Shown: one piece after another, positions 51,456-57,903 of the stretch
How the letters are laid out: each line of letters opens with the position of its first letter
Position numbering within the stretch: the stretch's first letter is position 1
Assembly (NCBI RefSeq): GCF_000341105.1
Contig: NZ_ANBB01000022.1
Coordinates: 62,001-126,000, forward strand
Length of the DNA: 64,000 nt
Reading direction: 5' to 3'
Origin: Nocardiopsis potens DSM 45234
GTDB taxonomy: Bacteria > Actinomycetota > Actinomycetes > Streptosporangiales > Streptosporangiaceae
Notes under the pieces: generated by a model
Seen by the model: only the letters and a program-made list of their open reading frames with translations
Told to the model about the DNA's origin: nothing
The model's database searches: none
Position numbers and translations under genes: made by a program

Positions 51456-51675
51456 GCCGGGCGGGCCCCGCCCGCGTGTTCCCCGTCACCCCGGACCGGC
51501 CGGCGGCCGCGGCGCACCGCGCCCCGCCCTCCCGCCCCGCCTTCCCCTTTTCCCGTGTCCGCGCTGCTCGGAGCGGTCCGTGCCGGTTACGGAGGCGGCC
51601 CGGCGCCGGCCGCCGCGCTCCGGCTCCGCGCACCGCCCCGCTGTGATCTTCCACCCCGGGCTCGCTCTCCTACAC

Positions 51676-51706
51676 GCCGTAGCACTACAGTTTGTAGTAC
51701 TACGGC
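51676..51706 (+). promoter_or_regulatory. BlaI/MecI-like palindrome upstream of cydA
   Basis: GCCGTAGCACTACA and TGTAGTACTACGGC are inverted copies with one mismatch around GTT. The central ACTACA-nnn-TGTAGT closely resembles the TACTACA-nn-TGTAGTA operator of BlaI/MecI/CopY winged-helix repressors. It lies 45 bp before the cydA ATG. No Rex-type TGTGAA-n6-TTCACA site was seen. A -10/-35 pair cannot be assigned. The rest of the 296-bp spacer holds nothing recognisable. Confidence 0.6.
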
Positions 51707-51751
51707 TCGTCGACGCCGTGGCAGCACGAGATCCGGCAGCAGGAGAGGCGC

Positions 51752-53209
51752 ATGGAAGCACTGGACCTGGCGCGGTGGCAGTTCGGGATCACCACCGTCT
51801 ACCACTTCCTGTTCGTACCGCTCACGATCGGCCTCTCGGTCATCGTCGCCGTGTTCCAGACGGCCTGGTACCGGACGGGGAAGCACTCCTACCTCCAGGC
51901 CACCAAGTTCTTCGGGAAGCTCTTCCTGATCAACTTCGCCATGGGCGTGGTCACCGGGATCGTGCAGGAGTTCCAGTTCGGCATGAACTGGAGCGAGTAC
52001 TCCCGCTTCGTCGGCGACGTGTTCGGTGCCCCGCTGGCGATGGAGGCGCTGCTCGCCTTCTTCCTGGAGTCCACCTTCATCGGGCTGTGGATCTTCGGCT
52101 GGGACCGGCTCTCCCGCCGGCTGCACCTGGCCTGCATCTGGATCGTGGCGATCGGGAGCAACCTGTCCGCCTACTTCATCCTCGCCGCCAACGCCTGGAT
52201 GCGGCACCCGGTCGGCTTCGACGTCGACCCGGAGACCGGGCGCGCCCGGCTCACCGACATCTGGGCGGTGCTCTCCAACACCCAGGCCTGGTCCACCTAC
52301 CTGCACGTGGTCTCGGCGTCGTTCATCACCGCCGGGCTGTTCGTGGTCGCGGTCAGCGCCTTCAAGCTCTGGCGCGCCCGGCACCACGGCGACACCGGGA
52401 ACAAGGGCGTCGCCCCGTCCGCCGGCGAGGGCGAGCTGTTCCGCAAGGCCCTGCGCACCGGCATGGTCGTCACGCTCATCGCCGGCGCGGTCGTCGTCCT
52501 CTCCGGCGACCACCAGGCCAAGCTCGCCGCGCGGTACGAGCCGATGAAGCTCGCCGCCGCCGAGGCGCACTGGGAGACCGAGGACGGCGCCGCGTTCTCC
52601 ACCTTCGCCGTCGGCGACACCGAGGCCGGCGAGAACAGCATCGACCTCACCATCCCGCACGTGCTCAGCTTCCTGGCCACCGGGAAGATCGACGGCACGG
52701 TCGAGGGGATGAACGACCTCCAGGCGAAGTACGAGGAGCAGTACGCCGAGTACGGCGAGGTGGACTACATCCCCAACGTGTTCGTCATGTACTGGTCGTT
52801 CCGGCTGATGATCGGCCTGGGGCTGGCCGGCGTCGCGGTCTCGCTGCTGGGCCTGTGGCTGACCCGCGGCCGCCGGCTGCCGAAGAGCCGCTGGTTCTAC
52901 TACGCCGCGATCGCCGCGCTGCCCGCCGCGCTGAGCGCCAACATCTTCGGCTGGGTCCTCACCGAGATGGGCCGGCAGCCGTGGACGGTCCACGGCGAGC
53001 TGCTCACCGCGCAGAGCGTCTCCCCCGGGGTGAGCCTGGGCCAGGTCGCCTTCTCGCTCACCGTGTTCACCCTGGTCTACGGGACGCTCGCGGTCATCGA
53101 GGCGGGCCTGCTGTGGCGCTACGTCAAGGCCGGCCCCACCCACGTCGTCCCCGACCTCGACGAGGACGGCTCCGGCGACGACGCCTCCGTCCCCGCCTTC
53201 GCCTACTGA
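51752..53209 (+). CDS. cydA: cytochrome bd oxidase subunit I
   Basis: A 485-residue CydA with about nine membrane helices. The N-terminal ALDLARWQFGITTVYHFLFV carries the b595 histidine. GSNLSAYFILAANAWMRHPV and the His of HVVSASF lie in the haem core, and the short Q-loop (about 245-320) is shorter than that of Escherichia coli. GRQPWTVHGELLTAQSVSP is the family block. It reduces oxygen to water using quinol without pumping protons and has high oxygen affinity. First gene of cydABDC. GGAG precedes the ATG. Confidence 0.96.
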   Translation: MEALDLARWQFGITTVYHFLFVPLTIGLSVIVAVFQTAWYRTGKHSYLQATKFFGKLFLINFAMGVVTGIVQEFQFGMNWSEYSRFVGDVFGAPLAMEALLAFFLESTFIGLWIFGWDRLSRRLHLACIWIVAIGSNLSAYFILAANAWMRHPVGFDVDPETGRARLTDIWAVLSNTQAWSTYLHVVSASFITAGLFVVAVSAFKLWRARHHGDTGNKGVAPSAGEGELFRKALRTGMVVTLIAGAVVVLSGDHQAKLAARYEPMKLAAAEAHWETEDGAAFSTFAVGDTEAGENSIDLTIPHVLSFLATGKIDGTVEGMNDLQAKYEEQYAEYGEVDYIPNVFVMYWSFRLMIGLGLAGVAVSLLGLWLTRGRRLPKSRWFYYAAIAALPAALSANIFGWVLTEMGRQPWTVHGELLTAQSVSPGVSLGQVAFSLTVFTLVYGTLAVIEAGLLWRYVKAGPTHVVPDLDEDGSGDDASVPAFAY

Positions 53210-54311: not shown

Positions 54312-56072
54312 ATGCGCCCTCTCGATCCGCGCCTGGTCCGCACGGCGAGCGCCGTGCGGGTCCACCTGGCCGTGACCGCGGCCTCCGGCCTGGCCGTCAC
54401 CGGGCTGGTGCTGGCCCAGGCGTGGCTGCTCGCGCACACCATCGCCGGCGCCGCCGGCGGTGCGGGACTCGACGAACTGTCCTGGGCGATCGCGGCCGTC
54501 GCCGCGGTCGCGGTCGCCCGGGCGGCGCTGTCCTACGGCGCCGAGACGGCCGCCCTGCGCTCCGCGGCGCGCGCGAAGTCCCAACTCCGCCGCCGCCTCG
54601 TCGCCCACGTCACCGGGGTCGGCGCGGAGCCGGGCGGCTCTCCGGGGGCCTCGCCTCCCCCGGACCCGGAAGCGGTCCGATCGTCAGGGCGGACCGGTTC
54701 CGGCGGGGCGGGTACGGCCGGTGAACTGGTCACCCTCGCCACGCGTGGCCTCGATGCTCTGGATGACTACTTCGCCCGGTATCTTCCTCAGCTCGTCCTG
54801 GCCGTGCTCGTCCCGATCGCCGTGCTCGTGGTGGTGGCCGGGGCGGACTGGATCTCCGCCCTGGTCATCGCCGTCACCGTCCCGCTGATCCCGGTCTTCA
54901 TGGCGCTGGTGGGGTGGCACACCCAGGCCCGCACCGAGCGCCGGTGGCGGCTGCTCAACCGGCTGGGCGGGCACTTCCTGGACGTGGTGGAGGGGCTGCC
55001 CACGCTGGCGGTGTTCCGCCGGGCCAAGGCGCAGGCCGCGGTCATCCGCCGGATCACCGGCGAGCAGCGCCGCAGCACCATGGCGACGCTGCGCATCGCC
55101 TTCCTCTCCGCGTTCGTGCTGGAGCTGCTGGCCACCCTGGCCGTGGCCCTGGTCGCGGTGGAGATCGGCATCCGGCTGATGTACGGCGTGCTCGACTACG
55201 AGACCGCGCTGCTGGTGCTGATCCTCGCCCCGGAGGCCTACCTGCCGCTGCGCGAGGTCGGCGCCCGGTTCCACGCCAGCATGGAGGGGGTCGCCGCGGC
55301 GCAGCAGGTCTTCGAGGAGCTGGACCGCCGCCCGGCGGCCGCGCCCCGGCCCGGATCCGAGAGCCCCGCCCGCCCCCTCCCCGGCGCCGCGCTCGGCGTC
55401 CGCTTCGAGCGCGCCGGGCTGACCTACCCCGGGCGCGATGACCCCGCGCTGCACGGGATCGACCTGGAGGTCCCGGCCGGCCGCCGGGTGCTGATCACCG
55501 GCCCCAGCGGCTCCGGGAAGACCTCGCTGCTCTCCCTGCTGCTCCGGTTCAACGAGCCCACCGAGGGGCGGGTCTGCGCCCTCGCCCCGGACGGCCCGGT
55601 GCCGGCCGCCGAGGTCGCGCCGGACGAGTGGCGGCGGCGGATCGCCTGGGTGCCGCAGCACCCCTACCTCTTCGACGACACCGTCGCCGACAACATCCGG
55701 CTGGGCGCGCCCGACGCCGGCGACGAGGCGGTCCGCCGGGCCGCCGAGCTGGCCGAGGCCGACGGGTTCGTCCGGGAGCTGCCGGACGGCTACCGCACCC
55801 GGCTCGGCGAGCGCGGCACCCGGCTCTCCGCCGGCCAGCGGCAGCGGATCGCGCTGGCCCGCGCGTTCCTGCGGGACGCGCCGGTGGTGCTGCTCGACGA
55901 GCCCACCGCCCACCTGGACCCGGAGAGCGCCGCCGCGGTGCGGCGCGCGGTCCGGCGCCTGCTGCGCGACCGCACCGCCCTGGTCGTCGCGCACGACACC
56001 GGCTGGGCGTCGGTGGTCGACGAGGTGGTCGAGGTGCGCGCCGGCCGGATCGCCACGGAGGCCGCCCGATGA
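54312..56072 (+). CDS. cydD: heterodimeric ABC exporter half CydD
   Basis: A 586-residue ABC exporter half: a six-helix membrane domain (about 1-335) and a nucleotide-binding domain with Walker A TGPSGSGKTSLL, Q-loop WVPQHPYLF, signature LSAGQRQRIALARAFL and Walker [15 protein letters not shown]. Together with CydC it exports thiols (glutathione/cysteine in model bacteria; mycothiol is the actinobacterial counterpart by inference) needed to assemble cytochrome bd. A low-complexity segment (GGSPGASPPPDPEAVR) interrupts the first helices at about 105-135. GGAG stands before the ATG. Confidence 0.93.
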   Translation: MRPLDPRLVRTASAVRVHLAVTAASGLAVTGLVLAQAWLLAHTIAGAAGGAGLDELSWAIAAVAAVAVARAALSYGAETAALRSAARAKSQLRRRLVAHVTGVGAEPGGSPGASPPPDPEAVRSSGRTGSGGAGTAGELVTLATRGLDALDDYFARYLPQLVLAVLVPIAVLVVVAGADWISALVIAVTVPLIPVFMALVGWHTQARTERRWRLLNRLGGHFLDVVEGLPTLAVFRRAKAQAAVIRRITGEQRRSTMATLRIAFLSAFVLELLATLAVALVAVEIGIRLMYGVLDYETALLVLILAPEAYLPLREVGARFHASMEGVAAAQQVFEELDRRPAAAPRPGSESPARPLPGAALGVRFERAGLTYPGRDDPALHGIDLEVPAGRRVLITGPSGSGKTSLLSLLLRFNEPTEGRVCALAPDGPVPAAEVAPDEWRRRIAWVPQHPYLFDDTVADNIRLGAPDAGDEAVRRAAELAEADGFVRELPDGYRTRLGERGTRLSAGQRQRIALARAFLRDAPVVLLDEPTAHLDPESAAAVRRAVRRLLRDRTALVVAHDTGWASVVDEVVEVRAGRIATEAAR

Positions 56073-56103: not shown

Positions 56104-57903
56104 ATGAGCGCGCAGGGCACCGGCCCGGCGACCCTGCCGGACGGCGCGGAGACCGGAACCGGCCCGATCCCCGCCGGCCGCGGCCGGGACCCGCTGCGGC
56201 GGATGATCATGCTGGCCTGGCCGCGCGGTTCGCGGTTCGCGCTGGGGGTGCTGCTGGGCGGCGCGGCCACCGGATCCGGGGTGGCGCTGCTCGGGGTGTC
56301 GGCCTGGCTGCTGGCCATGGCCGCCCAGCACCCGCCGATCACCGCGCTGAGCGTGGCGATCGTGGCGACCAGGGCGCTGGGCGTCACCCGCGGCCTGACC
56401 CGCTACCTGGAGCGGCTGGTCACCCACGACGCGGCGTTCCGCACCCTGGCCGACGTCCGGGTGCGGGTCTACGAGCGGCTGGCGCGGACCGAGCCGATCC
56501 GCCGGTTCCGCTCCGGCGACCTGGTCTCCCGGCTGGTCAACGACACCGAGGCCACCCAGGACCTGCTGATCCGCGGCCTCACCCCGCCGCTGGTCGCGGT
56601 GGTCACCGGCGGCGCCGCCGTCGCGGTGTGCACCGCGCTGCTGGCCCCCGGCGGCGCCCTGCTCGCCGCCGGGCTGCTGCTCGCCGGGCTCGCCGTCCCG
56701 CTGGCCGCGGCGGCCCTGGGCAAGGGGCCGGGCCGGCGCCAGGCCGAGGCCCGCGGCGCCCTGTCCACCTCGCTGGTGGACGCCCTGCACGGCGCCCCCG
56801 ACCTGATCGCCTACGGCGCCATGGACCGGGCGGTGCGCCGGGTGGAGGAGGCCGACGCGGAGCTGACCCGGGTGGCCCGCCGCGACGCCGGGCTGCTCGG
56901 CTTCGGCGCCGGGGCCACCGCGCTGATCACCGGGCTGACCGTGTGGGGCTCGCTGCTCCTGGGGGTCGCCGCGGTGCAGGGCGGGACGCTGGGCCCGGTG
57001 CCGTTCGCGGTGCTGGTGCTGACCACGCTGGCCGCGTTCGAGATCGTGGCGCCGCTGCCCGCGGTGGCGGCGCGGCTGGGGGCGATGCGCGCCTCCGGCG
57101 AGCGGCTGTTCGGGGTGCTGGACACGCCGTCCCTGGTGCGCGAGCCGGAGGAGGAGCGCTCCCTGCCCGAGGCGCTCCCCGCCGAGCTGCGGATCCGCGG
57201 CCTCAGGGTGCGCTACGGGCCGGAGGAGCCGTGGGCGCTGCACGGGATCGACATCGACGTCCGCCCCGGGGAGAAGGTCGCCGTGCTGGGCCCCAGCGGC
57301 GCGGGCAAGAGCACCCTGGCCGAGGTGCTGTTCCGGTTCCGCGACCCGGACGGGGGCACCGTGGAGCTGGGCGGCGAGGACGTCACCGGCTACCCCCGGG
57401 ACGAGGTGCGCCGGGTCGTCGGCGGGGTCCCGCAGGACCCGCACGTGTTCACCAGCACGCTGCGGGAGAACCTCCGGCTGGCCCGGCCCGAGGCCGAGGA
57501 CGGGGAGCTGTGGGAGGCGCTGCGCCGGGCCCGGCTGGACGGCGACGCGGAGGCGATGCCGGAGGGCCTGGACACCGAGGTCGGCGTGCACGGCGCCCGG
57601 CTCAGCGGCGGCATGCGGCAGCGGCTGGCGCTGGCCCGCGCCCTGCTCGCCGCGCCTCAGGTGCTCGTGCTGGACGAGCCCACCGCCCACCTGGACCCGG
57701 ACACCCGGGACGCCGTGGTGGCCGACCTGCTGGACGCCGCGGAGGGCTGCTCGACCCTGCTGATCACCCACGACCTGGCCGGCCTGGACCGAGTCGACCG
57801 GGTCTACGTCCTCTCCGAGGGCCGCGTGCTCCAGCAGGGCTCCCCGGCCGAGCTCGCCGCCCGGGACGGCTGGTACCGCAGCGCCCTGAACCCGGGGGGC
57901 TGA
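56104..57903 (+). CDS. cydC: heterodimeric ABC exporter half CydC
   Basis: A 599-residue second half of the exporter. It has six membrane helices, then Walker [33 protein letters not shown], signature [16 protein letters not shown] and Walker [18 protein letters not shown]. It ends the operon 31 bp after cydD with GGAGG before the ATG. Both nucleotide sites look complete. It forms the CydDC pair with the gene upstream; fusion of the two, seen in some actinomycetes, is not present. Confidence 0.93.

Follow-up and report, generated by a model that had tools for sequence, protein, structure and literature searches.

The cytochrome bd operon of Nocardiopsis potens DSM 45234 is preceded by an array of three CTAC-N5-GTAG sites in 15-bp phase. 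The array spans 43 bp (51670–51712) and lies 39 bp upstream of cydABDC in the window, that is the whole stretch of 64,000 nucleotides that was analysed. With good confidence we suggest that the BlaI-family repressor encoded on contig C71 uses this array as its operator at cydABDC, and that a protease relay induces the oxidase as well as the repressor–protease pair. The controller of cydA is most likely a BlaI-type repressor and not Rex. The positions of the features are compiled in Table 1.

Table 1. Positions of the array, the cyd operon and the related loci in the genome (plain numbers refer to the window)
Feature	Position	Strand	Remarks
Operator site 1, CTACACGCCGTAG	51670–51682	none	exact CTAC-N5-GTAG; among the whole-genome exact matches
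Operator site 2, CTACAGTTTGTAG	51685–51697	none	exact; core of the palindrome
Operator site 3, CTACGGCTCGTCG	51700–51712	none	one mismatch to CTAC-N5-GTAG
Palindrome	51676–51706	none	middle stretch of the array, with two GTAGYRCTAC blocks at a distance of 15 bp
cydA, cytochrome bd oxidase subunit I, 485 aa	51752–53209	+	ORF; PF01654, E 7e-170
cydB, cytochrome bd oxidase subunit II, 352 aa	53223–54281	+	ORF; TIGR00203 over cut-off
cydD, ABC exporter subunit for cytochrome bd assembly	54312–56072	+	ORF; TIGR02857 over cut-off
cydC, partner ABC exporter subunit	56104–57903	+	ORF; TIGR02868 over cut-off
blaI on C71	G000:C71:4945-5304		array upstream of its start
Membrane metalloprotease gene, 312 aa	L001:1859-2797		follows blaI on C71
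Putative third-target array	G000:C15:119115-119148 (L006:1501-1525)		before the WhiB1-like paralogue
Rex-type site	G000:C23:39077-39092		before the WhiB1 orthologue
Rex-type site	C33:92325-92340		before nuoA (PF00507)
Rex-type site	C17:74210-74225		before the NDH-2-like gene (Pyr_redox_2 protein)

The preliminary description of this DNA had reported a palindrome with 14-nt arms and one mismatch 45 nt before cydA and had taken it for an operator. The palindrome is present as described, with 13 of 14 arm positions paired (93%), a 3-nt loop and 45 nt between its end and the ATG of cydA at 51752, but it is only the middle of the longer array, in which adjoining units fuse to the blocks GTAGCACTAC and GTAGTACTAC. 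By itself the palindrome says little because many others of equal arm length are found in the window (58 arm/loop rows compared to 0–4 in six Markov resamples), and palindromicity was dropped as evidence, such palindromes being too common in this GC-rich DNA. Exact copies of CTAC-N5-GTAG occur twice in the window, both in the cydA array (chance mean 0.04; none of 100 shuffles reaches two). The operon 3′ of the array was identified as cydA-cydB-cydD-cydC by profile searches.

The genome (G000, 6.9 Mb in 133 contigs) encodes four BlaI proteins scoring over the Penicillinase_R cut-off, on contigs C71, C100, C23, and C66, and one of the four genes has the same operator upstream. A genome scan as proposed in the preliminary description yielded exact matches to CTAC-N5-GTAG-NN-CTAC at two places only, before cydA (three overlapping matches) and once upstream of blaI on C71; judged by sequence, the assignment to a BlaI-type operator is thereby strengthened. 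When one mismatch is allowed a cluster on C15 is added, and the other matches are mostly single and scattered. As the pattern written backwards gives 94 and 98 one-mismatch matches, single matches of this type carry no meaning. The array of blaI on C71 resembles that of cydA and lies directly before and into a putative −10 box (TAGACT), and the start codon ATG comes 7 nt later, as seen by eye. At the other three blaI genes no operator site is present in the 230-bp stretch around each start, and these paralogues were set aside as cydA regulators for lack of a site at their own starts.

According to its profile scores C71 BlaI is placed in the BlaI/MecI/CopY (Penicillinase_R) family (PF03965, 97.3 bits with a cut-off of 22.6), and it stays far below the cut-off of the CopY model (40 vs 122 bits). 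Among solved structures it is closest to that of M. tuberculosis BlaI (2g9w, E 3.5e-32), which we take to be Rv1846c. The staphylococcal bla/mec operators have the consensus TACAnnTGTA with CTAC-N4-GTAG spacing, which the preliminary description had quoted. This spacing does not apply here, as the array reads CTAC-N5-GTAG (TACAnnnTGTA) and is one base longer. The operator can be regarded as a variant of the BlaI type with an N5 spacer and phased arrays.

A BlaR1-like protease had been expected elsewhere in the genome. The gene following blaI on C71 in the same direction indeed codes for a membrane metalloprotease with the HExxH motif HEHAH; however, the protein ends after the catalytic region and no penicillin-binding domain was detected in it with Pfam at E 0.001. 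It scores over the cut-off of M48 (39.3 bits, cut-off 20.3) and under that of M56, the BlaR1 peptidase family (22.4 bits, cut-off 31). We do not class it as BlaR1 because the sensor domain is absent. The proposed link to beta-lactams and the cell wall is not borne out by a protease of this build.

The cluster on C15 lies before a gene coding for a WhiB1-like protein, which is probably a third target of C71 BlaI. The array is kept in all six genomes of the genus, always as one-mismatch sites, and begins a few bases past a TTGAAC-N17-CAGACT promoter (by eye), where a repressor would block transcription. This gene was rejected as the WhiB1/WblE orthologue: C23 carries the orthologue (74% identity), and the C15 gene is a paralogue (51%).

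The operator is conserved well beyond this genome. Of 60 relatives, 43 gave a CydA match and 47 a BlaI match under the thresholds applied. The array of the blaI promoter is retained in each of the 13 close orthologues (L043–L055), with two sites each (≤1 mismatch) just before the start codon. A wider sample comprised 197 genomes of the class, 118 of which contain CydA at E ≤1e-100, giving 127 cydA promoters of 250 bp each. A site with at most one mismatch is present in 67 of these promoters (Markov resamples: mean 8.7, maximum 16) and an exact site in 39 (resamples: mean 0.43, maximum 3), counts which are not independent as the promoters share ancestry. The exact controls gave 0 promoters for N4, 1 for N6, and 1 for the motif written backwards. 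When the 4+4 dyads with gaps of 0–10 were all counted in 153 promoters, without bias towards any of them, CTAC-N5-GTAG came out as the commonest (61). In the same promoters the staphylococcal-type N4 spacing has 0 exact sites vs 60 for N5, and neighbouring sites follow each other most often at 15 bp (80 cases, compared to 14 for the second commonest distance).

The array before cydA is common to many actinomycete families. Promoters with a site number 16/17 in f1, 14/14 in f6, 15/15 in f21, 9/13 in f28, and 6/8 in f38; the smaller families f39 (2/2), f5 (1/1), f41 (1/1), f35 (2/4), and f30 (1/4) follow. Outside the class sample, 21 of 24 additional f1 promoters have the site. No site was found in the cydA promoters of f20 (0/17), f19 (0/6), and 15 further small families. 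The site before cydA goes along with BlaI: it is present in 60 of 80 genomes with a BlaI match (E 1e-22) vs 7 of 38 without one (Fisher p 7e-9, kinship ignored), which leaves 20 of 80 genomes with a BlaI match yet no cydA site and 7 of 38 with a site yet no BlaI match. Four f19 genomes have a BlaI match of E 2.6e-30 or better and no site before cydA. Left out of the counts were G030, whose contig stops within cydA, CydA matches that were partial (E above 1e-100), and seven other copies or genomes, namely G035b and G019b with three exact sites each and G031b, G036, G021, G023, and G007 with none. In the counts of N4 against N5, of the additional f1 promoters, of the promoters shared with a divergent blaI, and of Rex-type sites in f20, G228 still stands as read at a contig end. 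The proposal that control had passed to a BlaI-type repressor in this organism is right as to the repressor and too narrow as to its range. A tree of the BlaI proteins has low resolution, with 11 of its 20 inner branches left open, and no conclusion rests on it.

Gene order connects the repressor with the oxidase as well. In 30 genomes (28 of the class sample, G038, and G039; neighbours read by eye) blaI adjoins cydA in divergent orientation, and every one of the 30 shared promoters contains a site (≤1 mismatch), which in 16 cases is exact. In all four divergent blaI loci that were inspected in full, the gene after blaI codes for an HExxH membrane protease, giving the same pair as on C71, with proteases of 297–331 aa by ORF length. 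In other genomes, the BlaI genes that bear the array and are linked to cydA are among the best matches to C71 BlaI. A scan of named genomes for two-site arrays gave at least 117 stretches, and 80 loci were examined among the matches listed. Among these, the array precedes cydA in 41 cases and blaI in 18 and is found at other places in 21, the last number speaking against the BlaI reading. Most of the 59 former loci belong to Streptosporangiales (Nonomuraea, Microbispora, Planotetraspora, Streptosporangium, Thermobifida, Nocardiopsis, Streptomonospora), and the nearest named CydA relatives with an array among the matches listed are from Nocardiopsis, Streptomonospora, Actinorugispora, and Thermobifida. 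Of the 21 arrays elsewhere one is truncated where the retrieved stretch stops, several are in unrelated phyla, where they are probably due to chance, and at least three precede genes of FAD_binding_3 monooxygenases.

We propose that dimers of C71 BlaI most likely sit side by side on the three sites in 15-bp phase and would block transcription of cydABDC. The repressor would also act on its own gene and on the co-directional gene of the M56/M48-type protease via the array over the presumed blaI promoter, and would probably repress the whiB paralogue on C15, too. The protease would be activated by a membrane signal, which is probably not a beta-lactam but respiratory or redox stress, and once activated it would remove or inactivate BlaI, leading to induction of the oxidase and of the repressor–protease pair. 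Binding to DNA and repression of cydABDC by C71 BlaI are suggested by the known behaviour of the BlaI family, and repression rather than activation at cydA is assumed. For the release of BlaI by proteolysis the model is BlaR1; here the analogy is weaker, since the C71 protease has a shorter chain and M48 fits it better than M56. Judging from the targets, one would first think of respiratory or redox stress, and a beta-lactam signal appears unlikely because the protease has no sensor domain.

Rex, the sensor of the NADH/NAD+ ratio, could control cydA as in Streptomyces, the array then being secondary. The genome has a Rex gene, and Rex-type sites (TGTGAAN4TTCACA, ≤1 mismatch) occur at six places in it, three of which precede genes fitting Rex: nuoA, an NDH-2-like gene, and the whiB1 orthologue, presumably the counterpart of wblE. 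The N4 form of the pattern agrees with the published consensus. Rex of S. avermitilis is reported to bind the promoters of cydA1, nuo, atp, and wblE. Near cydA, however, no Rex-type site was found even at three mismatches, as had been noted in the preliminary description, and as far as the sequence tells no such site was missed; the whole window contains two matches with three mismatches each, both at 8–12 kb, which is below chance expectation. Of an S. avermitilis-type Rex regulon, nuo and whiB1/wblE still have Rex-type sites here and cydA has none, and it seems that the Rex regulon persists without cydA in this genome. In the class sample Rex-type sites at cydA are nearly confined to f20, a Streptomyces-like family (taken for Streptomycetaceae by its Rex sites), in which the cydA promoter contains a Rex-type site in 15 of 17 cases and the array in none. 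Just one of the 127 promoters, from G169, has both elements, so that within the sample a cydA promoter with one of them almost never has the other. We consider control by Rex very improbable.

That another factor recognizes the array, be it one of the three further BlaI paralogues or a protein of a different family, is improbable, though slightly less so. The site stands before the C71 gene only of the four blaI genes, the BlaI genes with an array and linked to cydA in other genomes are among its best matches, and at the 80 listed loci none of the other gene families is met beside the array with such frequency. There is somewhat more to say for beta-lactams or cell-wall damage as the signal, as in the BlaR1–BlaI system of S. 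aureus. The family resemblance points this way, and in M. tuberculosis cydAB and blaR-blaI are reported to rise upon treatment with a beta-lactam plus clavulanate. Nevertheless, a penicillin-binding domain was not detected in the 312-aa protease, the four cydA-linked proteases are of similar length, and M. tuberculosis BlaR likewise is without the sensor domain according to the M. tuberculosis paper itself; we judge this signal to be unlikely. A chance palindrome or a transcription terminator with no regulatory role can practically be dismissed: long arms are common in this GC-rich window, but the array is phased, specific within the genome, and kept at the same place in many families, and inspection of the sequence showed no T-run after it.

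The BlaI-type control that we favour is of a kind already known from M. tuberculosis BlaI, for which binding at the cytochrome bd promoter has been reported. The literature drawn on in this analysis comprises PMC5473688, PMC5874750, PMC7924339, PMC4757040, PMC5355995, and PMC8765290. Both systems share, besides the closest structural relationship of the repressors (Rv1846c-Rv1845c being the M. tuberculosis pair), a sensor-less BlaR or protease adjoining BlaI. They differ in that no atp target is among the exact matches here. Set against the M. tuberculosis regulon, the targets comprise cydABDC, the blaI–protease pair, and probably the whiB1-like gene. With the staphylococcal-type systems (BlaI–BlaR1 of S. 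aureus and B. licheniformis, MecI–MecR1) the present one has in common a BlaI-family repressor, TACA...TGTA operators, and a blaI gene beside a membrane metalloprotease gene. Unlike these systems it has the N5 instead of the N4 spacer, arrays of 2–4 phased sites, no penicillin sensor domain, and an oxidase instead of a beta-lactamase or PBP as target. CopY-type copper repressors belong to the same protein family and have TACAnnTGTA operators, but no copper gene is in the target set. Rex control of cydABCD in Streptomyces has the target operon and the repressor–operator logic in common with the present system, whereas repressor and operator differ and the signal probably does so, too. In the literature searched, in which subscription journals are scarce, we came across no work that places BlaI at cydAB in organisms other than M. 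tuberculosis and nothing on the operator array, the divergent blaI–protease/cydA layout or the Rex/BlaI exchange. As far as found, the operator grammar, its breadth, the divergent layout, and the exchange are new.

Cytochrome bd is a back-up oxidase with which actinomycetes, including mycobacteria, survive a blocked main respiratory branch. BlaI and the membrane protease, encoded together at the four loci read and with blaI divergent from cydA in 30 genomes, are a concrete candidate for the sensor of such a block, and the operator pattern identifies which BlaI paralogue serves cydA. Probably the membrane protease and its repressor switch on the back-up oxidase. The sample also shows an exchange of two unrelated repressors, Rex and BlaI, at one operon within a single bacterial class. 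We further put forward, tentatively and with some doubt, that BlaI and the sensor-less protease form a dedicated, widely inherited actinomycete relay, that the streptomycetes swapped in Rex, and that the same relay is behind the induction of mycobacterial cydAB. If so, the relay would sense failure of the main respiratory branch, via the quinone pool or the membrane state, and would free cytochrome bd by proteolysis of BlaI; lineages like this one would have kept Rex for complex I and whiB1 only; and the relay would be the sensor for cydAB induction in mycobacteria under respiratory inhibitors.

Some minor observations concern arrays at other genes and other sites at cydA. Two-site arrays lie directly before genes of FAD_binding_3 monooxygenases in Nonomuraea (L122), Thermocatellispora (L138), and Actinomadura (L150) and, read by eye, in L132 and L185; in L180 (Pseudonocardia humida) the array directly precedes a cytochrome P450 gene. 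In L109 and L139 (Actinomadura) it is beside a DUF3817 gene (by Pfam in L109, by eye in L139) with an MFS-like ORF on the opposite side. Upstream of the array many other genera of the family have a CRP-like site with one mismatch, TGTGACGAAGATCGCA or close variants, about 100–170 bp before cydA (L028, L030–L032, L037–L040, and others). In the window there is only a trace of it with three mismatches (51642–51657), which was set aside. Among cydA copies without an exact array site, L027, L035, and the G127 promoter (L234) contain palindromes of the GACCAAGGTCC type, in L027 and L035 in the form GGGACCAAGGTCC, which in our view resemble DosR/OsdR boxes. It seems that two cyd operons of one genome are under different regulators.
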